Below are positions 1-24,329 of a stretch of DNA of 24,329 bases, piece after piece. The stretch spans positions 1-24,329 of the IMG/VR virus record IMGVR_UViG_3300047551_000060, one strand, 5' to 3'. A model generated the notes under the pieces. It saw only the letters and a list, made by a program, of their open reading frames with translations, was not told the DNA's origin and made no database searches. This stretch comes from a virus. A program made the translations under genes and the position numbers. How positions within the stretch are numbered: the stretch's first letter is position 1; every line of letters begins with the position of its first letter.

Positions 1-198
1 ATCTTCGCACTTCTGCAGCGTCCAGACCGTACCTGGCTGGATCTCAGGCCCAGTAGATCCGTAGCCTATCGTCCAAGGATGGCCTCGCGTTCCAGGATCG
101 GGATAGGAGGTTACGTTTCCATCAGGCAGAAGCTTAGCTAGCCCTTCAAAGGGCTTGATGAGTACATCTTTTGCTAGCAGTTTTGCCTCTTCATTCAC
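1..198 (-). CDS. GH24 lysozyme (endolysin), 5' part only, cut by window edge
   Basis: N-terminal 66 residues of a phage endolysin that would cleave the glycan strands of peptidoglycan at the end of infection. Visible are KPFEGL with the likely catalytic Glu at residue 18, then YPDPGT (residues 32-37) and PWTIGYGSTGP (residues 41-51), the T4/lambda-type GH24 active-site signature. The frame stays open to base 1, so the C-terminal part is outside the window. The start is GTG at 196-198: an in-frame TAA lies two codons upstream, and no ATG in this frame could replace it. The GTG overlaps the TGA of the HNH gene (GTGA), with only a weak purine-rich SD, so translation is probably coupled. No N-terminal signal-anchor is seen, so it should depend on a holin for export. 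Confidence 0.88.
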   Translation of the reverse strand, partial: MNEEAKLLAKDVLIKPFEGLAKLLPDGNVTSYPDPGTRGHPWTIGYGSTGPEIQPGTVWTLQKCED

Positions 199-677
199 GA
201 CTTACGGTTCTCTTCTGTTGCTAATTGCTTGCGTTTTTGCCACCAGATTTTGATGGATTCAGATTGTTTTTTCACCGACTCTTCAGATCGTGTTTTTCCA
301 AGCCAGTGGCGTGATGATCTGCCTTTTTTAGCCTTGTCTTGCATATTATCTGCATCAGTCCCAAGAAACAGATGGTTTGGATTAACGCACTTGCGATTGT
401 CACACTTATGCAAAATCAATAGCCCAGATGGTATTGATCCGTTGGTAAGCTCCCATGACATGCGATGTGCGTTTACAGGGGTTTTTGAATTTAGTGCAAA
501 TTGCCCGTATCCTGTTTGCGTAAATACAGACCACTGCCATTCCCAACATCCGCTCTCCACGCGACTTACCTTAGACCAAAACCGACATGCTATTGAACAC
601 TGTTTTTCTCTGCCCCCATTTTTTCTTTCAAACAGTTTGCCGCAGTGACTGCAATTGATTGGAATTTTTTTGCTCAT
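195..677 (-). CDS. HNH endonuclease with zinc-finger and NUMOD3-like motif
   Basis: 160-aa free-standing homing-type endonuclease. Residues 9-31 hold a C-x2-C ... C-x3-C set (C9, C12, C27, C31) that should bind zinc. Residues about 68-115 are a typical HNH_3 core: AHRMSWELTNG, LILHKCDN, then CVNPNHLFLGT, with H90, N99 and H102 in the catalytic beta-beta-alpha-metal region. Residues about 126-142 (LGKTRSEESVKKQSESI) resemble the NUMOD3 DNA-binding motif of group I intron and phage homing nucleases. Expected role: nick or cut a cognate intron-less or gene-less phage site and spread by repair. Its ATG overlaps the stop of the 3-TM gene (ATGA) and its TGA overlaps the GTG of the lysozyme. No intron boundary is visible around it. 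Confidence 0.88.
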   Translation of the reverse strand: MSKKIPINCSHCGKLFERKNGGREKQCSIACRFWSKVSRVESGCWEWQWSVFTQTGYGQFALNSKTPVNAHRMSWELTNGSIPSGLLILHKCDNRKCVNPNHLFLGTDADNMQDKAKKGRSSRHWLGKTRSEESVKKQSESIKIWWQKRKQLATEENRKS

Positions 678-7889: not shown

Positions 7890-8221
7890 GTTATTTCTCT
7901 CCCTGATACGCGAAGCGTAAGAGCTGTCGCCGCGCTTGCAATCGTGCTGATAAATGCGCCTGGATCAAGTTCGTGTCCGACCAGCTCTGGGCAGAGATAA
8001 GTTTCACCAGGCACTACAGTTCGGTCATCAATAATGAGGTTTGCATTGCCTGCTGTACCTCCTGATTGCACAAGGTTTACGCTAAACGAGCGATTCACGG
8101 TATCGGTGTTCGTCACCGTGGCTTTGTCAATCAACGCTTTCGCTAGTGTCGCGGTATATTGTGTCGTCTGCGTTGCCTGCATCTGCAAAGGCGCAACGAG
8201 TGTCTTAACAGTCACAGTCAT
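7886..8221 (-). CDS. Small beta-rich virion protein (unknown)
   Basis: 111 aa, rich in T, V and A, few charged residues, predicted mainly beta. Features: KTLVAPLQMQATQTTQYTA at the N-terminus, KATVTNTDTVNRSFSVNLV (33-51), VVPGETYLCPELVGHELDPG (68-87), and a C-terminal LTLRVSG. This reads like a small beta-sandwich structural protein, and a similar pattern (turn with V-P-G, then a strand and G-x-x-I) is seen in the 116-aa protein at 11015-11365. ATGA overlaps on both sides link it to the needle-like gene and the cysteine-rich gene. Possibly a tail or decoration protein; no certain family. Confidence 0.55.
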   Translation of the reverse strand: MTVTVKTLVAPLQMQATQTTQYTATLAKALIDKATVTNTDTVNRSFSVNLVQSGGTAGNANLIIDDRTVVPGETYLCPELVGHELDPGAFISTIASAATALTLRVSGREIT

Positions 8222-9084
8222 GACGGATAACTCCTGATGTTATTCGAGACAGTCAAAATAATGCTCGGAACTGCTGGATGCACCCCTGTCGCCGGAAATG
8301 CCGCAATAGTCGCAGCAGTGTTTGCGACCTCCCACATAATCTCAACGTAGTCGCCAGCTTTCATGTCAACCAATAGGTTAAACGCCTGAAGCAGCTCTGA
8401 GTTGGCATTTTGAATTGTAAGGTAGAACGCGGAATTTGGAATGTTGGTTCCGTTTTTTCGCATCCAAACCCAGACTTCACGATTTGCGCCACCCGTCGAA
8501 TCAAACTGAATCGATACCTGGAAGTTATACACGCCCTCGGTATCGACGACAATATGCGAGGTCGGCGTTCCGATAAATACGCCTTCGCTCAAATCGGTGC
8601 TGTTAAAAGTGATCGGATACGCGGTATTAATTGCCGCTGCGGTCTGTGTCGTTGTGTCATAAAACTGCCCGAACCTTGTGCGCTTAGGCGGCACACGAGC
8701 CGGAGCCATTTGCAGCCCGTCAACCACGGTGGCAAGGCTTCCCAGCAATGCCATAGCCTGGTTCACTTTGTTTTCAGTGGATGCAATGCTGACCGACGTG
8801 CTTTGAGCTAGCGCAGAAATCTGATCGAGCGCTTGCATTGCTTTGTTTTCACTGATCGAGCAACAAACCGCAACCTCTTGCGCGAGCGTAGCAATCATGC
8901 CAAGTGCTTGCACGGCCTTTTGCTCGGCATTGCCAGCGGAGATTGTGGTTGCTTGTATCGCATCTGGCGCAACTTCAGCGACCACTGCAAACAGATTCTC
9001 AAACTGCTTGATCTGCTCGAAATCATCTAAAAACGATGCTAGCTGATCTCGCGTCAACCCTAGCGGTGGCACTGGCCTTGGCAT
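8218..9084 (-). CDS. Probable tail needle: repeat-built helical stalk with C1q/TNF-like knob
   Basis: 288 aa. Residues 1-38 are an N-terminal helical region (DQLASFLDDFEQIKQFENLF). Residues about 41-125 are a long helix, much of it built from 25-residue repeats (KAVQALGMIATLAQ, KAMQALDQISALAQ, KVNQAMALLGSLA), as expected for a trimeric coiled coil. Residues about 136-288 have the C1q/TNF jelly-roll pattern: FYDTTTQT, GVYNFQVSIQFD, VWMRKNGTNIPNS, AGDYVEIMWEV, ending in SIILTV. P22 gp26 plugs the tail and pierces the envelope; the related Sf6 needle (about 282 aa) carries a TNF-like knob. The gene directly follows gp10, the P22 gene 26 position, with a 1-nt gap. The N-terminus is unlike gp26, so homology is inferred from architecture, length and order. 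A short fibre is the alternative. Confidence 0.6.
   Translation of the reverse strand: MPRPVPPLGLTRDQLASFLDDFEQIKQFENLFAVVAEVAPDAIQATTISAGNAEQKAVQALGMIATLAQEVAVCCSISENKAMQALDQISALAQSTSVSIASTENKVNQAMALLGSLATVVDGLQMAPARVPPKRTRFGQFYDTTTQTAAAINTAYPITFNSTDLSEGVFIGTPTSHIVVDTEGVYNFQVSIQFDSTGGANREVWVWMRKNGTNIPNSAFYLTIQNANSELLQAFNLLVDMKAGDYVEIMWEVANTAATIAAFPATGVHPAVPSIILTVSNNIRSYPS
8713..8922 (-). repeat. 25-residue (75-bp) tandem repeats in the needle-like stalk
   Basis: Three units starting at residues 55, 80 and 105 of the 288-aa protein. Conserved positions are K2, Q5, A6, L/M7, I/L10, L13 and A14 of each unit, with S/T-E at the end of units 1 and 2. Twenty-five residues equals 7+7+11, a period that fits a helical bundle of mixed heptad and hendecad type. 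DNA identity between units is partial, so the duplication is not recent. Confidence 0.72.
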
Positions 9085-9085
9085 G

Positions 9086-10489
9086 TCATGCCGCCAGTGG
9101 CTCGATCTGAGCCTCTAATCGAGCGATAGAGATATGCGCGTCTGTATCGCCTCTAAAACGCTGTATACGCCAATTTCTCATGTTGCCCATCTGAAACCAT
9201 GTAATTCGCTTTTGCGTCGCTCCTGTGGTTCCTACGCTTGTAAAGCGATCTTGACTCCAAGATGATCCATCTTTGGAATATGACGTAGAGATTTGCGGAT
9301 TGAGACCGACTTGCACACGACCCGTCAGGCTGACCAGCTCCATCTGGTGGAATATCGCACCTAAAGATTGGTTGTAGACGATGATCGTTGAAAACTCCCA
9401 ACGTACTGTCTGGCCCCAATGACTTCCGATGGTGTTATCAAAGTAGCCAATGCTTGAGGATTGCGGATCTCCGACGAGCCATTTGTCGTAAGCCCAGACA
9501 AAGTTTTTTGCACGATATTGTGAAAATCCGACGACAGTGCTCGTGAGCGTGAACCAGACCAAGGACTTAAGTTCCCGCGATGCTTGTTCATCGAAAACAA
9601 TGGTTCTATCGGGAAGATGAACGTAGAGGTGTTGATGCGCTCTGTCATTTCGAGCCTCCAGCTTAACAACCGCGAGCTGCGCTTCCGTGTAGGTCAGCAA
9701 GAGCATATCAATCTCTTGCGAGCTAATCTTTTCGGTTGTTGCGTTTGCGCCTAAGTAAATTCCTGGCGCTTCGTTTCGTCCTGATCCAAGAAACGCAATG
9801 CGCTGAACAAATTCACAGCAAGCAAAAGTGCCAACAACGCCTTTTTGAATCTGAGCGCCATCAATGCGCTGGAACGGGAAAAACTCAGCGCCAACGTTAT
9901 CAAATACCTCAATTGTATTTCGATTAAGAGCATAGACTTCGTTTCGCAGTTTAATGAGAGCAACAATCGGATCTGGATCGACCTCCGACGAGCCATACTT
10001 CAACGGGTCAACTTGCAGCGGATTGCTCAGTTCTGTAATAACAAGACTCGTTCCGTCAGTGGTCATGAAATAACCATCGATCCAACACACATCAATAACA
10101 ACACCAAGATCTGGATCTGTAACTTGTGTCAGCACTCCGTTCCAATAGTAAAGCCTGCCACCAGAAGCAATCGCTAGTCGATCAAAGCTGTAATCAAACG
10201 TCACAAGCGTATTAACTGGCCCACCAACGTCTCCAAGAATTGTCACGGCTCCATTAGACGCAACAGTAACTAACTTGGTTCCCATCACGCGATAGCAGAT
10301 GCCGTTCCAGTTGATGCCACCGCGATCAATACCTGGGCCTGTTCCATTTGCCACGATGCCATCGGCTGGGCGCAAGTATTCCGAGCTGATCCCAGAACCT
10401 TTTGGCGTTGGAACTAAATTGACCGGATAAGCCGTGCGAATGTCTGGCCCATTATCCGTATAAATGCCTGAAAGAATCGGGATTTGCAT
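9086..10489 (-). CDS. P22 gp10-like packaged DNA stabilisation / tail hub protein
   Basis: 467 aa, close to the 472 of P22 gp10. The N-terminal motif IPILSGIYTDNGPDIRTAYP and PVNLVPTPKGSGIS is typical of the gp10 family. Through the body are repeated beta-propeller-like strands (DYSFDRLAIASGGRLYYWNG; DVCWIDGYFMTTDGTS; RNTIEVFDNVG; GVVGTFACCEFVQRIAFLGS; HLYVHLPDRTIVFDE). The C-terminal part is also beta (RITWFQMGNMRNWRIQRFRG). In P22, hexameric gp10 sits below gp4 on the portal, keeps the packaged DNA in and helps bind tailspikes. Start ATG behind AGGTTA; one base separates its TGA from the needle-like gene. Confidence 0.85.
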   Translation of the reverse strand: MQIPILSGIYTDNGPDIRTAYPVNLVPTPKGSGISSEYLRPADGIVANGTGPGIDRGGINWNGICYRVMGTKLVTVASNGAVTILGDVGGPVNTLVTFDYSFDRLAIASGGRLYYWNGVLTQVTDPDLGVVIDVCWIDGYFMTTDGTSLVITELSNPLQVDPLKYGSSEVDPDPIVALIKLRNEVYALNRNTIEVFDNVGAEFFPFQRIDGAQIQKGVVGTFACCEFVQRIAFLGSGRNEAPGIYLGANATTEKISSQEIDMLLLTYTEAQLAVVKLEARNDRAHQHLYVHLPDRTIVFDEQASRELKSLVWFTLTSTVVGFSQYRAKNFVWAYDKWLVGDPQSSSIGYFDNTIGSHWGQTVRWEFSTIIVYNQSLGAIFHQMELVSLTGRVQVGLNPQISTSYSKDGSSWSQDRFTSVGTTGATQKRITWFQMGNMRNWRIQRFRGDTDAHISIARLEAQIEPLAA

Positions 10490-11365: not shown

Positions 11366-11394
11366 TTCTTCATTCCTATAAATAACATCTTAAT

Positions 11395-11658
11395 TTACCT
11401 GTTTTCCGCTTCTCTTGCTTCAATCTCATAGGGATTGTTACGGTATCCGTATCGCAAGCTCCACCACAAGTATTGCACCGCGAACTTTAACTTGCCATCC
11501 CGCTTCATTTGCTCTAAGTGCTCAAGCTCATGCTTAATCAAACGCTCGTTTGTTTCCCAACCCGGTGCAACATAAACAACATTCCAAAACAAAGCCATGC
11601 CTTTAAATCCCGTAAGACGGAACCACCAAAGAATCGGGCCTGATGCAGTTTGGATCAC
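11395..11658 (-). CDS. Mini-protein with HExxH zinc-metallopeptidase motif
   Basis: 87 aa. Contains KHELEHLEQM with H43-E44-x-x-H47, the zinc-binding and catalytic motif of metallopeptidases, and downstream NPYEIEARE (75-83), where E78 or E80 could be the third ligand as in gluzincins. Aromatic and hydrophobic stretches flank it (GMALFWNVVYVAPGW; LKFAVQYLWWSLRYGYR), and the N-terminus has ILWWFRL. Small phage proteins with HELEH and NP-E-E-A are known but not characterised. Start is GTG overlapping the TGA of the 81-aa gene (GTGA). It sits between the tailspike-linked gene and small structural genes. A peptidase role is inferred from the motif; cleavage has not been shown for such short forms. 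Confidence 0.65.
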   Translation of the reverse strand: MIQTASGPILWWFRLTGFKGMALFWNVVYVAPGWETNERLIKHELEHLEQMKRDGKLKFAVQYLWWSLRYGYRNNPYEIEAREAENR

Positions 11659-11900
11659 AGCCGTTCAGCTTGAGCTGTTTGATACGCCGCAATCACTTCA
11701 GGCGTATGCACGGCAGCGCAAACGGCTTGCACTTTGGCATCTTCGCCGCTGTAGTCATCGCCAGGGGCAACAACGTGGCGGTGAAAATTGCTACTAATTT
11801 CAACACCATTTTCTTTGATGGCGGTCTTTGTGCGGACTTGGACGCTACCGTTTTCAACTACCTCAATACGGTCAACCACAATTACTTTTTCAAGTGCCAT
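11655..11900 (-). CDS. Small protein following the tailspike (unknown)
   Basis: 81 aa from ATG at 11898-11900, which has GGAG nine bases before it; a TTG 12 nt further upstream in frame is less likely because it would overlap the SD. The N-terminal half is beta-like (EKVIVVDRIEVVENGSVQVR), then KENGVEISSNFHRHVVAPGD, and the C-terminal half is helical (DAKVQAVCAAVHTPEVIAAY). Short proteins of this kind recur next to spike or fibre genes in environmental phages. A link to the spike (assembly factor or accessory) is only a guess from position. Confidence 0.58.
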   Translation of the reverse strand: MALEKVIVVDRIEVVENGSVQVRTKTAIKENGVEISSNFHRHVVAPGDDYSGEDAKVQAVCAAVHTPEVIAAYQTAQAERL

Positions 11901-11918
11901 TACTATCTCCAAAAAATA

Positions 11919-13649
11919 TTACATTCCTTCGGCCCAAACAGTGAGCGTTGAAGACGCAAGATCAACCGGCGATCCTGTGTTGTTAGTCAGCGTTGCTGTG
12001 ATTTGACCGGGACTTGCTTGACTAACCGCCGCCGTCAACGTCAAGCCTGATGTGCTGATGCTCAACACAGCGTAGCACACCATCTTAAACTCAACGCCGG
12101 GAACAGACACCACAACGCTTTCGCTTGCACCATCAGCTATGCTGCCAGGATCCCATGTTTGCGACACGCCAAACGGACTCGGACTTACATTGCGAATCGT
12201 TGTGCCCAACACGCCAGATACAAAACTCATTACATTTTGATAATTAAAATCAGATGATGCAGCTTTTGCTAATACATTGCTGATAAATCTAGGAACACCA
12301 CTGTTAAAAAGAATTCCGATAAAATTTGCAGGCCTTGCGCCAGTAAACAAAATATCCACGTTTCTAACAATTGCATTTGCTGCATCAAATTGAATTGCGC
12401 GTGAATTTGCCGCGCCACAGTTAACCAGATGAATACCATCTAATGTGACGTTTGCACCACCAACATAAATGGATCTACCGGTGCAATTATTTAATTGGAC
12501 ACTCTTTAGACTTGAATATGGCTGCAGTATTGTAATTGCCAGGTCGGGTACAAAATTACCGTAAACGCTATCAATGTCTGATCGAATATCTGCATACAAA
12601 ATAGAACAACTTATTGATACAGCGTTGATGTTTTTAACAGTTGGAACGCCTGTGATTGATCCATGCAAATAAATGCACACGTTGTTTGCGTTTGAAGCAC
12701 TGATGTCAATAAAATCAGCTCCATCAATAATTGGACTCGTAATTTGCGTTCCAACATCAATAATTCCACGATCTGCGGTTGGGTGATCGTATGCAATAAC
12801 ATTCCTAATTGACGGGTTTTCGCAAGATGCAATGTTCAAAAACCCGAGATCATTGTTTTCACCAGTAACATTGGTGATTAGTATGTTTTGATTTAATCCA
12901 ATTGGCCCACCAAGAGCTAAACCGTATCCATCGTTGTTAAAGAGCCGTGCGCCATCGACGACTGTAAACCTATTTCCAAACGTATATCCGGCATCCGGCT
13001 CAATATCAATGCCGCACTTAGGCAAAGTGCCGTTTGTGTTTTTATATTCGCCGCCGTTTACGGTCAAACGTAAACTGCCAATGACTGACAATCCATTTCT
13101 GTATGCGTTGTCTGCAATGCAATTGTTTAGAACAATATCAGTTGGATAACTGGCTTGCGTTCCCAAGACCGTGGTACTGACATACAGACCGTCGGACGTG
13201 GAATTTTTACAAACAACATCATTAACTACGATGTTGCTGCAATAATCCGTAATTGACAAACAATGCGACGCTGTTTGCATTGTAATGGTTCGGTTTGCTC
13301 TATTTCCATCAATTGTCAAACCATTGATTGCGCCATTTTGACAGTTAATAAAAAACATAACTTCGTGATTTGTTGTTACCGGCGCACTATTTTTCACTTT
13401 AATCGTTGCACCGTATCCTTCAACAACAAAGTTTGATTTGCCGTTAAACTTTAGTCCGTTTACATTATCTGAATTAACAATGTACGTTCCAGCCGGAAAA
13501 AACAATGCGCTACCGACGGATGGCATGGCGGCAATCGCATCTAAAATGGCATCTGTGTCATCCGTTATACCGTCACCAGTTGCACCGTAATCCAAGACAT
13601 TGATTGGTGCCCCAGTAATCATCGAATACGAAACTTTTGTCAGCGCCAT
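11919..13649 (-). CDS. Tailspike: beta-helix, pectate-lyase-like fold, without head-binding domain
   Basis: 576 aa. It begins MALTKVSYSMITGAPINV and goes straight into DYGATGDGITDDTDAI (residues 20-35), the start signature of Pectate_lyase_3 beta-helix tailspikes. Residues about 60-480 show repeated short strands with N- and G-rich turns (FVVEGYGATI, INGLTIDGN, NIVVNDVVCKNS, LTVNGGEYKN), as in a right-handed parallel beta-helix. Residues about 497-576 form a separate C-terminal beta domain (DPGSIADGASESVVVSVPG ... NTGSPVDLASSTLTVWAEG), common as a trimer cap. Spikes of this sort bind and often cleave or deacetylate surface polysaccharide; a catalytic set cannot be named from sequence. SD GAGGAA. 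The P22 head-binding domain is absent here and encoded two genes upstream. Confidence 0.83.
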   Translation of the reverse strand: MALTKVSYSMITGAPINVLDYGATGDGITDDTDAILDAIAAMPSVGSALFFPAGTYIVNSDNVNGLKFNGKSNFVVEGYGATIKVKNSAPVTTNHEVMFFINCQNGAINGLTIDGNRANRTITMQTASHCLSITDYCSNIVVNDVVCKNSTSDGLYVSTTVLGTQASYPTDIVLNNCIADNAYRNGLSVIGSLRLTVNGGEYKNTNGTLPKCGIDIEPDAGYTFGNRFTVVDGARLFNNDGYGLALGGPIGLNQNILITNVTGENNDLGFLNIASCENPSIRNVIAYDHPTADRGIIDVGTQITSPIIDGADFIDISASNANNVCIYLHGSITGVPTVKNINAVSISCSILYADIRSDIDSVYGNFVPDLAITILQPYSSLKSVQLNNCTGRSIYVGGANVTLDGIHLVNCGAANSRAIQFDAANAIVRNVDILFTGARPANFIGILFNSGVPRFISNVLAKAASSDFNYQNVMSFVSGVLGTTIRNVSPSPFGVSQTWDPGSIADGASESVVVSVPGVEFKMVCYAVLSISTSGLTLTAAVSQASPGQITATLTNNTGSPVDLASSTLTVWAEGM

Positions 13650-13679
13650 ATAGATTCCTCGTCGTAAGTTTTTAACAAT

Positions 13680-14480
13680 TTATGTCATGTAATTGATACT
13701 GAAATATATGTATCTGTTGTTATCCCAATCTTCGACATTAACAAAATTGTTTGTCGTGCCGGTAAGAGGAAACAATATTTCGGTTCCGTTTGTATAACTA
13801 AAACTTCTAATGTCTGTGCTTGTGGCGTTGTCGAACCAAGCGCCGCCACCAATTTGAGCCTCGTTCGTGTAACCCGTAAATGGCATTCCGGTCATGTACA
13901 TCGTTCCAGTATGAGCTGTTGCATCATTTCTAACGATATAACCCTCTAACCGCACCAAACGTCCTATTTTGGTGTATTTGGCTGTCGTGGTAGTTGTAGT
14001 AACTTGAGTTCCTGTTCCAGATCCGACTCGTACAATTGGCGTCCAGTTGCCTTCTTCATAATCATTAAGCAACTCGCTTGTGCCTGTTCCAGCAGTAGCA
14101 GAAAAATCAATCCCATTTCCATTTGCCACCACCAGGTTACCGCTCGTCAACACCGCGTTCCCCGTGCCCTTCGGGGTCAGCGTAATTCCGATGTTTGTGT
14201 CGCTGCCGGTAGCCGAAATCACAGGGTTTGCGCCTGTCGCGGAATTCGCTACCGTCAGCTCATTGACTGCCGAGGCGGTCGTTGTGATCGTAATGACTTC
14301 GTTGTTGTTGTTATCGTTGATTCCCGTGGTCTGAATGGTGCGACCTTTGGTGAGGTTTGCAACCGTGACCTTTTTGGCTCCGCTTTGATCAATCGGAACC
14401 GTCTCTGTGCCTGCAAGAGGCACAGTTGCATTGGCCAAACTAGATATTTGGCTGATGAGCGTAGAAATGGCTTTTAACAT
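13680..14480 (-). CDS. Fibre/spike-like virion protein
   Basis: 266 aa, T/N/G/V-rich. Residues about 18-46 (VPLAGTETVPI, KKVTVANLTKG) form a short attachment-type module. Residues about 50-130 look like repeated beta strands (GITLTPKGTGNAVLTSGNLV). Residues about 133-200 hold a module frequent in phage fibres: LLNDYEEGNWTPIVRVGSG, YTKIGRLVRLEGYIV and MYMTGMPF. The end is beta (YIYFSINYMT). It lies 2 nt after the head-binding gene and 30 nt before the beta-helix spike, so it may be a middle part or companion of the spike complex, or an independent short fibre. Frame differs from both neighbours. The N-terminal third (14160-14280) is about 60% GC by hand count against about 37-52% further on, a sign of modular exchange. 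Confidence 0.65.
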   Translation of the reverse strand: MLKAISTLISQISSLANATVPLAGTETVPIDQSGAKKVTVANLTKGRTIQTTGINDNNNNEVITITTTASAVNELTVANSATGANPVISATGSDTNIGITLTPKGTGNAVLTSGNLVVANGNGIDFSATAGTGTSELLNDYEEGNWTPIVRVGSGTGTQVTTTTTTAKYTKIGRLVRLEGYIVRNDATAHTGTMYMTGMPFTGYTNEAQIGGGAWFDNATSTDIRSFSYTNGTEILFPLTGTTNNFVNVEDWDNNRYIYFSINYMT

Positions 14481-14482
14481 AA

Positions 14483-14974
14483 TTACACCACAAACTCGAT
14501 GATTGCGTTTAACGGAGGAGCCTGCGTAAACGTTACATTGCCACTTGAAACAGAATAAGTATTCTGGTTTTGATATACGCCGTTAATGTAAATTGCAGAC
14601 GGAACAAATGTCACTGCAAACACAGTTTGTGACCCAGTTCCGGTTGCATTTGAAGTAATTGACCCACCACCACCAGAATATAAATTATCTTGCAATGATG
14701 TATAAACAACGGTTCCATTTTTATTTTGAACCTGAATACTATAATTAGCTGCAACATATAACCTGACTGGTGTTCCAGCAGAAACTGGGTATCCAGCTAG
14801 TGTTCTAATTGGCAATGTTGCTGAAATTGTCTGTGCCGCATTTAAATAAACATTGATTGGATTACCAATGGGTTGCAGCCCCGCAACGCCAATCCATATA
14901 TATCCATCTTCCAGCGGCTGACCATCAATATCAGCAAATGCTGGATATGGAGGCTGAACTAATACGGTTCCCAT
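14483..14974 (-). CDS. Stand-alone P22-type tailspike head-binding domain (adaptor)
   Basis: 163 aa. Residues about 3-100 follow the P22 tailspike head-binding pattern: VLVQPPYPAFADIDGQPLED, GYIWIG, NPINVYLN, LAGYPVSAGTPVRLYVAANY, SIQVQNKNGTVVYTS. After a glycine-rich linker (SGGGGS, about 99-104) comes a small beta domain (SAIYINGVYQNQNTYSV ... VTFTQAPPLNAIIEFVV) that could serve as a docking or trimerisation unit. In P22 this domain is the first 108 residues of the tailspike and fixes it to the gp4/gp10 tail hub; here it is a complete gene with its own SD (AAGGA, spacing 8) and TAA. It probably anchors one or both of the following spike/fibre proteins. Confidence 0.78.
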   Translation of the reverse strand: MGTVLVQPPYPAFADIDGQPLEDGYIWIGVAGLQPIGNPINVYLNAAQTISATLPIRTLAGYPVSAGTPVRLYVAANYSIQVQNKNGTVVYTSLQDNLYSGGGGSITSNATGTGSQTVFAVTFVPSAIYINGVYQNQNTYSVSSGNVTFTQAPPLNAIIEFVV

Positions 14975-14984
14975 TATTTTATCC

Positions 14985-15443
14985 TTACGCTATGCGATAC
15001 CAAGAATTAGTTGGCTGATAGAAACGAATGCGAAACTGATCGCCAGCAGCCAATACGCTTAATCCATTTCCATAAACAGCCGTCGCTCCGTTTAGACCAA
15101 GTGTAAACGCTACGATCTGCTGAGTTGTTGTCACCAAAACCTCTGTTCCATCTGGCGTTGCCGTATTCAGCGGAAGCGTCACCGTTCCCGTTGCCAATCC
15201 AGATGCCGGTTGCAATAAAATCCACTGTTGCTGCGAAACGGGCGTTGGCACAGCGATATTAAAGCCTGTGCCTGGTGTGTATAGATTTGTTGCAAGCGTT
15301 GGAGCTGCAAACGTCTGCTGGAAATACTGCAACAGCGCCGATACCGGAAGCCTGCGTGAGTCGCCGTTATTTGGCGTGAACAGCACAAACTGATCGCCAG
15401 CAGAGACCTGAGATAAGAGCGGAAGCTGATTGATATATGGCAT
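14985..15443 (-). CDS. Beta-rich virion or fibre protein (unknown)
   Basis: 152 aa, few charged residues, rich in T, L, Q and P. The N-terminus (QLPLLSQVSAGDQFVLF, then DSRRLPVSALLQYFQQ) resembles in pattern the attachment-type N-terminus of the 266-aa protein at 13680-14480. The C-terminal 80 residues are a beta module (GTVTLPLNTATPDGTEVLV, IVAFTLGLNGATAVYGNG, FRIRFYQPTNSWYRIA), of a kind found at the ends of many phage surface proteins and also seen loosely in the 204-aa protein at 16779-17393. SD GAGG. It lies 7 nt after the gp4-like gene. Likely a virion surface or fibre component. Confidence 0.58.
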   Translation of the reverse strand: MPYINQLPLLSQVSAGDQFVLFTPNNGDSRRLPVSALLQYFQQTFAAPTLATNLYTPGTGFNIAVPTPVSQQQWILLQPASGLATGTVTLPLNTATPDGTEVLVTTTQQIVAFTLGLNGATAVYGNGLSVLAAGDQFRIRFYQPTNSWYRIA

Positions 15444-15450
15444 AACGGCC

Positions 15451-15948
15451 TCAGTAGTATCGATTTGTCATGATCGGCAACAGCGGCCCTTCTGGGCCTG
15501 TCAGAACCGGATCAACAGGCGGCGCAACAAACGGATCATCGACGCGCCACGGCTTATTACCAGCACCAGCAGGCATTGTAGATGGGAGCTGTTTCTCTAG
15601 CGGTGCAGCAGCTCTTTGGAGCAACACATCAAACGCAGCCTTTGCTGCCGCCTTTGTTTCTGCAGATACCGTCTTCCCAAACGCAGGACCAATCCTTATA
15701 CCTAAATTGGTATAAATTGCCTCATTCGCTGAATCAGGCACAAAGGTTTCTTCATCAAGATCAGAGTTCTGCGGATAATTCGGCAGCGGATAACCGAGCC
15801 TGATGCCCATGCCGTTCCATGTCGCCATCATCGAATCGAGACGGCGCAGCGCTGATTGCAATTGCTCTGGCGTTAAATCGAAAACGTATGAGGCAAGACC
15901 AATCTCCTCAAACGCTTGAACAACAAACTGTCGCTTAGTCCACGCCAT
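15451..15948 (-). CDS. P22 gp4-like head completion / tail accessory factor
   Basis: 165 aa, against 166 for P22 gp4. N-terminal helical part: WTKRQFVVQAFEEIGLASYV, LTPEQLQSALRRLDSMMATW (25-44), GIRLGYPLP, then NEAIYTNLGIRIGPAFGK and AKAAFDVLLQRAA. The extended C-terminus is P-rich (RVDDPFVAPPVDPVL) and ends TNRYY. This is the characteristic pattern of the gp4 family, which binds as the first tail ring below the portal and, in P22, also has peptidoglycan-hydrolysing activity reported. Start ATG behind GAGGAG; it overlaps the previous gene by 14 nt. Confidence 0.82.
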   Translation of the reverse strand: MAWTKRQFVVQAFEEIGLASYVFDLTPEQLQSALRRLDSMMATWNGMGIRLGYPLPNYPQNSDLDEETFVPDSANEAIYTNLGIRIGPAFGKTVSAETKAAAKAAFDVLLQRAAAPLEKQLPSTMPAGAGNKPWRVDDPFVAPPVDPVLTGPEGPLLPIMTNRYY

Positions 15949-22832: not shown

Positions 22833-23265
22833 CGATTACTCGCTCGATCTTCTTAAACTCAATGGGCAAACCATCGATGCCGCTATGCTCGTGGCGCTGC
22901 ACTTCCTTCCATCCCATTTGACACTTTGACCACCAGATTTGCGCCGTCGTATCGCCTGCCATAGCCTTTTGGAAGATACCCTTGCCGACCTGGGCGTTTG
23001 CTTTAGCCTTGCCATTTAGCAGCTCAGCAGAGAACTTATCGCGCAGCGTGTCAACGTGAATGCCATCTCGAACCAGCGCCGCGATCTGCTCAAACGGCAC
23101 ACCATAGCCAGACAGCGCCTCTACTTGTTTTCGCTCTGAATCTGTCGGCTCAAACGGCTTGCGACCAGCGCCAGCCCGTGCGCCACCGTAGTTTCTAGAC
23201 TCAGTTTCATCTTTTTTAGGCGTTCGGGTTGATTTTTCAGGATCTAATTTCTTCGTTGCTTTCAT
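22807..23265 (-). CDS. terS: Terminase small subunit (probable)
   Basis: 152 aa from ATG at 23263-23265, chosen for the strong GGAGGT SD; the longer open frame runs into the methyltransferase gene. Basic N-terminus (MKATKKLDPEKSTRTPKKDE), GGARAGAGRKPFEPTDSERK (a common phage terminase N-terminal motif), then a helix-turn-helix region (VEALSGYGVPFEQIAALVRD, IHVDTLRDKF), a conserved FQKAMAGDTTAQIWWSKCQM (A-x-G-[DN]-x-x-A-x-x-[FW]-x-x-K pattern) and a C-terminal tail (FKKIERVIVG). Small subunits recognise pac or cos and load the large subunit; the order just before terL agrees. Overlaps the methyltransferase by 29 nt. Confidence 0.82.
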   Translation of the reverse strand: MKATKKLDPEKSTRTPKKDETESRNYGGARAGAGRKPFEPTDSERKQVEALSGYGVPFEQIAALVRDGIHVDTLRDKFSAELLNGKAKANAQVGKGIFQKAMAGDTTAQIWWSKCQMGWKEVQRHEHSGIDGLPIEFKKIERVIVGANNLKD

Positions 23266-24329
23266 TTGTAACCTCCGCGAAAGGTTCTCCTGTTTCTGCG
23301 TGCGTTGCAATTTTACCCGTAAAGTTCTGCCATCGCTTGACGATGACATCGCAGTATTTTGGGTCTAGTTCCATCAGATATGCAATACGGCCATTCTTTT
23401 CTGCCGCTACTAAAGTAGTGCCCGACCCTCCAAAACTATCCAAAACGATGTCACCGCCTTTAGTGTTGTTGAGCATTTGATATTCAAACAACGCGACAGG
23501 CTTCATTGTTGGATGCTCGCCGTTTCGACTAGGCTTATCAAATTCTAAAATAGTCGTTTGCTTTCTATCTGCTGCCCAAAGGTGGCCAGCGCCTTCTTTC
23601 CATCCGTACAAACAAGGCTCGTGCTTCCAGTGATAGTCCTGGCGTCCCATGACCATGCTGGACTTTTCCCAGATCAGGCACTGGCGGACAGTCCAGCCAG
23701 CGTCCTTGGCCGCGCCTCGGAAGTTGTAGCCTTCGGAATCAGCGTGCCAGATGTAGAACACAGCGCCAGGCTTCATGACCGTGTCGGCTGCCGTGTAAGC
23801 ATCGCGCAAGAATTGTCGGAATTGGTCGTCGCCCATCTCGTCGTTCTTGATCTTGAGCGCGTCCTTGGTCTTGCCCTCGTAGGCCACGTTGTAAGGTGGG
23901 TCGGTCAGCCACATGTCCACCAGCTGCTCTTTGCAGAGCTTGGCCAGGTCGTCCATGCTGGTGCTGTCGCCGCACAAGAGGCGGTGCTTGCCCATCACCC
24001 AGATGTCACCGGGCACGGTGCGCGGGGTTTCTGGCAGCGGTGGTGCGTCGTCTGGGTCGGTCAGGCCCTCCGTTCCGACGGGTGCCAGCAGCTCCTTGAT
24101 CTCGTCCAGGTCGAAGCCGGTCAGCTCGAGGTCAAAACCAAGTTCCTGCAAATCAGCAAACTCCACCTTGAGCATCTCAGTATCCCAGCCCGAATTGAGT
24201 GCAAGCCGATTGTCTGCAATTACATACGCTCGCTTTTGCGCTTCCGTAAGATGCTCGAGTCGAATGCACGGAACTTCGCTTAAGCCCAGCTTGCGAGCGG
24301 CAAGCACTCGTCCGTGGCCTGCAATGATT
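23237..24329 (-). CDS. ParB-like nuclease domain fused to beta-class DNA methyltransferase, 5' end outside window
   Basis: At least 363 residues in frame to the edge. The first visible residues read IIAGHGRVLAARKLGL, the ParB/sulfiredoxin-type motif, then RAYVIADNRLALNSGWD, so the gene starts beyond base 24329; a GTG at 24307 lies within this domain and is not the start. The methyltransferase follows: DPPY at residues 136-139 (counting from that GTG), then HPTMKPVALFEYQ (265-277) and VLDSFGGSGTTLVAAEKNGR (288-307), a IV-X-I order as in beta-class amino-methyltransferases (N6-adenine or N4-cytosine; DPPY favours N6-adenine). ParB-methyltransferase fusions are common in phages and may protect DNA or mark packaging sites. 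The central third is much richer in GC than its flanks. Confidence 0.9.
   Translation of the reverse strand, partial: IIAGHGRVLAARKLGLSEVPCIRLEHLTEAQKRAYVIADNRLALNSGWDTEMLKVEFADLQELGFDLELTGFDLDEIKELLAPVGTEGLTDPDDAPPLPETPRTVPGDIWVMGKHRLLCGDSTSMDDLAKLCKEQLVDMWLTDPPYNVAYEGKTKDALKIKNDEMGDDQFRQFLRDAYTAADTVMKPGAVFYIWHADSEGYNFRGAAKDAGWTVRQCLIWEKSSMVMGRQDYHWKHEPCLYGWKEGAGHLWAADRKQTTILEFDKPSRNGEHPTMKPVALFEYQMLNNTKGGDIVLDSFGGSGTTLVAAEKNGRIAYLMELDPKYCDVIVKRWQNFTGKIATHAETGEPFAEVTNESNEEIRS

Follow-up and report, generated by a model that had tools for sequence, protein, structure and literature searches.

How can a P22-like virus carry its tailspike when the head-binding domain (HBD) is encoded by a gene of its own? 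The spike of P22 is the textbook single-chain tailspike, and the question arises from the IMG/VR virus record IMGVR_UViG_3300047551_000060, a linear record of 24,329 bases that was analyzed as a whole (the window). The tail cassette and the hub genes all lie on its minus strand, in the order gp4-like factor, tail protein of 152 amino acids (aa), adaptor, fiber, spike, small genes, and gp10-like hub. Three open reading frames (ORFs) had been described in the original prediction, and all three are present: the adaptor gene (163 aa, 14483..14974), the fiber gene (266 aa, 13680..14480), and the spike gene (576 aa, 11919..13649). We consider it likely that they constitute an adaptor-and-tag system of the K1-5/SP6 type that uses a P22-type anchor and exchangeable spikes. 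The HBD of the adaptor, probably trimeric, would seat on the P22-like gp4/gp10 tail hub, and the C-terminal docking domain (CTD) of the adaptor would be the socket that holds a short tag, M[SA]LTKVSYSMI, at the start of the beta-helix tailspike. The separate knobbed fiber encoded between the two would serve as a second receptor-binding protein, and whole spike cassettes could move among viruses and among adaptors with different anchors because the tag alone would be needed for fit.

The N-terminus of the adaptor (residues 1-97, 14684..14974) is a P22-type HBD, beyond chance. A profile of 61 relatives matched the P22 head-binding domain structure 1lkt with E=3e-5 and Sf6 gp14 with 5.7e-5, and 48 of these 61 family members matched Pfam PF09008 (Head_binding), the best with 1.5e-6. 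The window copy itself did not match this Pfam family at E<=1, and a direct phmmer search of the window adaptor against the PDB returned nothing; P22 was reached by the family profile only. The AlphaFold2 model of the adaptor (predicted local distance difference test, pLDDT, 84.8) has the dome fold of the P22 HBD, as indicated by a Foldseek comparison with 1lkt (E 1.5e-5, target TM-score 0.76, prob 1.00). The N-termini of the P22 and Sf6 tailspikes were found at E~1e-5, the branching tailspike TSP4 of CBA120 was matched weakly, and the Pan3 and Pam1 tails were among the matches; the literature searched contained no paper on the latter two. A T7 gp17-like N-terminal anchor, as present in gp37-type adaptors, was not found, the anchor being of the P22 type. 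The motifs from which the HBD had been recognized (GYIWIG, NPINVYLN, and GTPVRLYVAANY) and the more C-terminal IYINGVYQNQ...IIEFVV are all located within the 163-aa protein, which is fully occupied by HBD and CTD and has no receptor-binding domain. The window also encodes a P22 gp4-like tail accessory factor (15451..15948; Pfam P22_Tail-4 4.2e-14) and a P22 gp10-like tail hub or DNA stabilization protein (9086..10489; Pfam Phage_stabilise 1.2e-32; PHROG 578 1.5e-100). These genes suggest that the anchor would be seated as a trimer on a gp4/gp10 hub, with both proteins as parts of the expected seat.

The adaptor gene has its own stop codon and its own Shine-Dalgarno sequence (AAGGAT, 14981..14986), and its stand-alone state is not a peculiarity of the window. 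IMG/VR holds 445 relatives of the adaptor, of which the closest 80 were fetched (63-100% identity). In all 80, the adaptor is an ORF of its own with 156-165 aa, and HBD and beta-helix were found in separate ORFs, never in one polypeptide, in the window and all of these relatives. The second gene, encoding the fiber, begins with MLK in 71 of 76 loci, and the third, encoding the spike, with M[SAP]LT[KR] in the 65 loci in which such an ORF was found; loci without an identified third gene are mostly cut by a contig end, with a few exceptions (e.g., L039 and L067). A scan of bacterial and archaeal genomes detected no relative. One could suspect a broken tailspike gene or a sequencing error, as P22-type HBDs are also fused to longer chains (PfAn1, ct76p945, 5P1a, and BFVD hits) and as fiber and spike are in one frame in the window. 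We regard this as extremely improbable, since another record, contig L007, is identical to the window over 10,111 bases and the split is seen in each of the 80 relatives, whose ORFs are intact and whose tags are kept wherever the contig is long enough. The relatives thus exclude a sequencing error or a recent gene break, in agreement with the original prediction.

The argument that had been used against a break, namely that the genes are in different frames, is correct for adaptor and fiber, the latter starting 2 nucleotides (nt) past the adaptor stop, but not for fiber and spike, which have one common frame (starts 831 = 3x277 nt apart) and are separated by a single TAA and 30 nt (13650-13682). 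As fiber and spike share the frame in the window and in 34 of 53 relatives, the frame argument is weak, and the evidence against a break comes from the relatives and not from reading frames. Read-through of the fiber stop codon into the spike was ruled out, because the frame differs in the other 19 of the 53 relatives. The frequent common frame is probably due to a fixed spacing of stop, Shine-Dalgarno sequence, and start: the gap from the fiber stop to the spike ATG is 9 nt in 25 of the 53 relatives, and a TAAGGA overlaps the stop and the Shine-Dalgarno sequence. In the window, the Shine-Dalgarno sequence of the spike is GAGGAA (13655..13660).

The C-terminal 60 residues of the adaptor are a separate domain, the CTD (residues 105-163, 14486..14662), which is DUF4183-like and homologous to the C-terminal repeats of gp37. 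When the CTD was compared by tblastn with 50,697 phage records, SP6/K1E-type gp37 adaptors formed the largest match group, with each single match being marginal (E 0.01-0.6). A CTD profile used in hmmsearch against ORFs of 15 loci detected K1E gp37 with 5.9e-11, SP6 gp37 with 1.4e-9, and the Proteus PM93 'tail protein/adaptor protein' with 1.7e-10. The profile matched a strong repeat at gp37 residues ~261-310 and a weak repeat at ~190-234, and hhalign aligned the CTD to gp37-type adaptors with probabilities of 88-94% and E-values of 3e-6 to 1.2e-7, the aligned region of gp37 being residues ~264-310. A docking domain of the gp37 type is therefore present at the adaptor C-terminus, as a single copy where gp37 has two. 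Pfam DUF4183 (PF13799) was matched at E<=1 by all 61 family members (best 8.6e-6); the window copy (E 7e-5) reached 23.0 bits and remained below the cut-off of 25.1.

The spike itself (Pfam Pect-lyase_RHGA_epim 1e-12; PHROG tail spike 4.4e-14), for which a polysaccharide-degrading function is presumed, begins with MALTKVSYSMITGAPINVLDYGATGDGITDDT, about 15 residues ahead of the beta-helix. There is therefore no space for a head-binding domain in the spike, and the possibility that such a domain had been overlooked at its N-terminus is excluded, as the original prediction had required. Its residues 1-11, MALTKVSYSMI (13617..13649), are the candidate docking tag, a conserved N-terminus on unrelated spike bodies. 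Among 52 nonredundant loci, mean identity was 75% for the adaptors and 77% for the first 12 spike residues, and 96% of the spike-body pairs had no BLAST match. All 137 occurrences of the tag are located at the start of a protein. The tag codons differed per pair by 1.85 nonsynonymous changes, compared with 5.14 expected at random placement, and by 3.87 synonymous changes, compared with 1.02 expected; L3, T4, and S9 are encoded by several synonymous codons. This synonymous excess indicates that the peptide is conserved and not the DNA. The window tag has the LTK core in common with MAKLTKP of K1-5, and the SP6 gp46 tailspike record begins with MSLTKP. According to the literature, K1-5 tailspikes bind gp37 via N-terminal peptides, namely MAKLTKP and an undecapeptide (Leiman 2007, cited in PMC6872550).

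Tag and CTD are mostly encoded together. A scan with the DNA pattern of the tag as the query, in which loci with >=2.5 kb upstream were counted (n=40), found a CTD protein in 34 of the 40 loci, 32 of them with the CTD in a small adaptor. A broader CTD profile, with no match among 3,435 reversed decoy ORFs, increased this number to 38, the added four having the CTD within a chain of 600-805 aa. Of the remaining two loci, one (L195) contains what by eye is a CTD-like sequence, and the other (L249) has the spike of L066, a contig with an adaptor. No tagged spike was seen in nine loci without CTD (L002-L005 and L179-L183), eight of which have a P22-type HBD. Queries with the HBD proteins of Sphingopyxis phage VSN-002 and of ct3Oc712 found only one and four contigs, respectively, with other C-termini and no tag.

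The tag also accompanies the CTD on a different anchor. Phage DSL-LC05, with a 170-aa adaptor, a 205-aa fiber, and a 483-aa tagged spike in this order, led to a sister lineage of adaptors with 396 IMG/VR relatives. The CTD is present in 80 of 80 fetched members, and nearly all fetched loci with enough flank have a tagged spike after the adaptor. Mean identity between the two lineages is 27% for the anchors and 51% for the CTDs. In Vibrio phage 5P1a, one fused chain comprises HBD, CTD, and beta-helix, and after it comes a second spike, the tag of which is related. The same socket is joined to yet another type of anchor in L184 (8085-8597), where a stand-alone 170-aa adaptor with an unrelated N-terminus and the CTD precedes a KISxL fiber and a tagged spike. 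The jumbo Vibrio phage 2.275.O (L301, record 225000-262000) has 11 matches to tag plus beta-helix start and one weak CTD match, which suggests a many-branched spike set.

LTKVSYSMI might alternatively be a cap that is kept for folding of the beta-helix and not for docking, as it stands immediately ahead of the common NVLDYGA beta-helix entry and as many Vibrio phages have related N-termini. We consider this quite unlikely, because the first spikes of 5P1a and 1.253.O, which are fused chains and share this beta-helix entry, have other residues at this position, because the motif without exception forms the N-terminus of a protein, and because the HBD loci that lack the CTD lack LTKVSYSMI as well. 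Homology and association are thus in line with the original prediction that the beta domain at the adaptor C-terminus docks the MALTKVSYSMI end of the spike, with the physical contact itself being a putative one.

A further aspect of the original prediction had to be revised: the locus is not a tailspike split into three. Judged from its predicted structure, the middle gene (PHROG 17970, 6.6e-13) is most readily interpreted as a second receptor-binding protein with a knob-like head and not as a tailspike fragment. AlphaFold predicts an N-terminal helix (aa 2-16), a shaft of low confidence, and a confident head (aa ~141-266; 13683..14060). The Foldseek matches of the head were Noumeavirus NMV_189 (E 1.3e-4) and the 'Dettilon' tailspike gp208, followed by weaker matches to the reovirus sigma1 head and the TP901-1 receptor-binding protein. 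The sister lineage includes at least 10 loci without a fiber gene, in which the tagged spike directly follows the adaptor. It could be argued that the adaptor carries the fiber only and that the tagged spike is attached elsewhere, either to the hub directly or to the fiber. The fiber gene adjoins the adaptor gene, and the fiber N-terminus is predicted by the adaptor type: MLK goes with the P22-type in 60 of 63 cases, and KISxL in most cases with the other type. The spike tag, in contrast, does not differ between the two types. Nevertheless, the loci without a fiber gene, the tracking of the CTD by the tag across anchor types and phage groups, and the gp37 homology, which indicates spike docking, make this arrangement improbable and favor an adaptor that carries the spike via its tag.

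With respect to exchange, genomes with a similar adaptor and a different spike were sought and found. The DNA of L008 is 94-95% identical to the window up to 14038, inside the fiber gene, and again from 11367 (blastn). In the block between these positions (11367..14038), the fiber head, the spike, and the small downstream genes are substituted, with both N-terminal tags kept as protein. Exchange also occurred in the other direction: the spike bodies of L057 and L190 are 91% identical and their adaptor anchors 22%, and similar cases are L187/L245 (spikes 81%) and L166/L256 (73%). Beside the 91%- and 81%-identical spikes, the anchors are 22% and the CTDs 47-59% identical. Similar adaptors are also paired with unrelated spikes. 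These comparisons support well that the spikes are exchangeable modules, as had been predicted, which appear to pass from virus to virus and onto adaptors whose anchors differ.

Among known systems, gp37 with gp46/gp47 of SP6, K1-5, and K1E is closest in its principle. Both have a small adaptor that lacks a receptor-binding domain, docking repeats at the C-terminus that are homologous, and tailspikes without anchor that begin with a short conserved peptide. In contrast to the window, the gp37 anchor is of the T7 gp17 type, and gp37 has about 320 aa with two docking repeats, compared with 163 aa and one CTD; here, the genes also adjoin in one cassette, and the second protein is a knobbed fiber with a different N-terminus. 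P22 gp9 and Sf6 gp14 share the fold and sequence profile of the N-terminal domain and the gp4 and gp10 hub genes, but their HBD is fused to the beta-helix and not encoded alone with a docking domain. The branched systems G7C gp66/gp63.1, CBA120 TSP2/TSP4, and KP32 RBP1/RBP2 are described as having T4gp10-like docking domains and an anchor protein that holds a second spike via a short conserved N-terminal sequence (PMC6872550). They resemble the present system in this respect and in the weak match to CBA120 TSP4, but in most of them the anchor protein also includes a spike body, which is lacking here. For Kayfunavirus CLB_P1, separate adapter and receptor-binding chains have been reported and likened to K1-5, SP6, K1E, and KP34 (PMC10408124), a similarity that we take from the published description only.

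Several points weigh against an adaptor-and-tag system on a P22-type anchor. The HBD is only about 26% identical to that of P22, and the AlphaFold2 model is monomeric, with the trimeric state of the adaptor being presumed. Relatives were picked by similarity, which biases the sample toward stand-alone forms, and fused HBD+CTD+beta-helix chains exist elsewhere. The single CTD per chain must hold both fiber and spike, or the fiber is attached elsewhere. The docking of the tag on the CTD is itself proposed from homology and association. Finally, the CTD best matches the last gp37 repeat and the middle one weakly, whereas according to the literature the LTKP heptapeptide binds to the middle part of gp37; judged from these alignments, the pairing of tag and socket is therefore not one-to-one with K1-5.

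The kind of system is known. New, as far as the searched literature shows, are the P22-type anchor, the socket that is small and single, and the scale on which exchange takes place in an environmental group: no such description was found for this virus group with its hundreds of environmental members, and a stand-alone P22-type adaptor was described neither in the papers on the Vibrio phage Peru-2 and the Xanthomonas phage PBR31 nor in that on DepoCatalog. The system would offer phages a concrete route to trade receptor-binding proteins without protein fusion. We find it fairly probable that it represents a general plug-and-socket standard, in which different anchors share one docking domain, unrelated spikes share one LTK-type tag, whole spike cassettes pass between short-tailed phages that are otherwise distant, and a separate adaptor is the stable rule within this P22-like group. 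In viral contigs without annotation, adaptors and receptor-binding proteins are currently labeled 'DUF4183' or 'pectate lyase'; a simple marker for them could be the N-terminal M[SA]LTK..SMI tag together with the CTD.

The spike gene is followed by an 85-aa gene (11655-11912, minus strand; PHROG 6228, no known function). In relatives, this slot is occupied by the same family (VDRIEVVENG..QVRTKTAI) or by an unrelated family of ~82-95 aa (NAYIKV.S.SGNK), some proteins of which start with MALTK, as the spike tag does. The 152-aa tail protein upstream of the adaptor (14985-15443, minus strand) has homologs near the hub gene in PfAn1 and ct76p945, phages with fused P22-like spikes; it was dropped as a member of the system, since only 2 of 73 loci have a homolog ahead of the adaptor. 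A 288-aa protein adjoining the gp10-like hub (8218-9084, minus strand) has a weak C-terminal C1q-like match and is possibly a knobbed tail needle. By eye, a DNA methylase-like ORF (23237-24328, minus strand) was seen next to the terminase genes, and a small HNH-like ORF (195-677, minus strand) next to the endolysin-like ORF at the window end.

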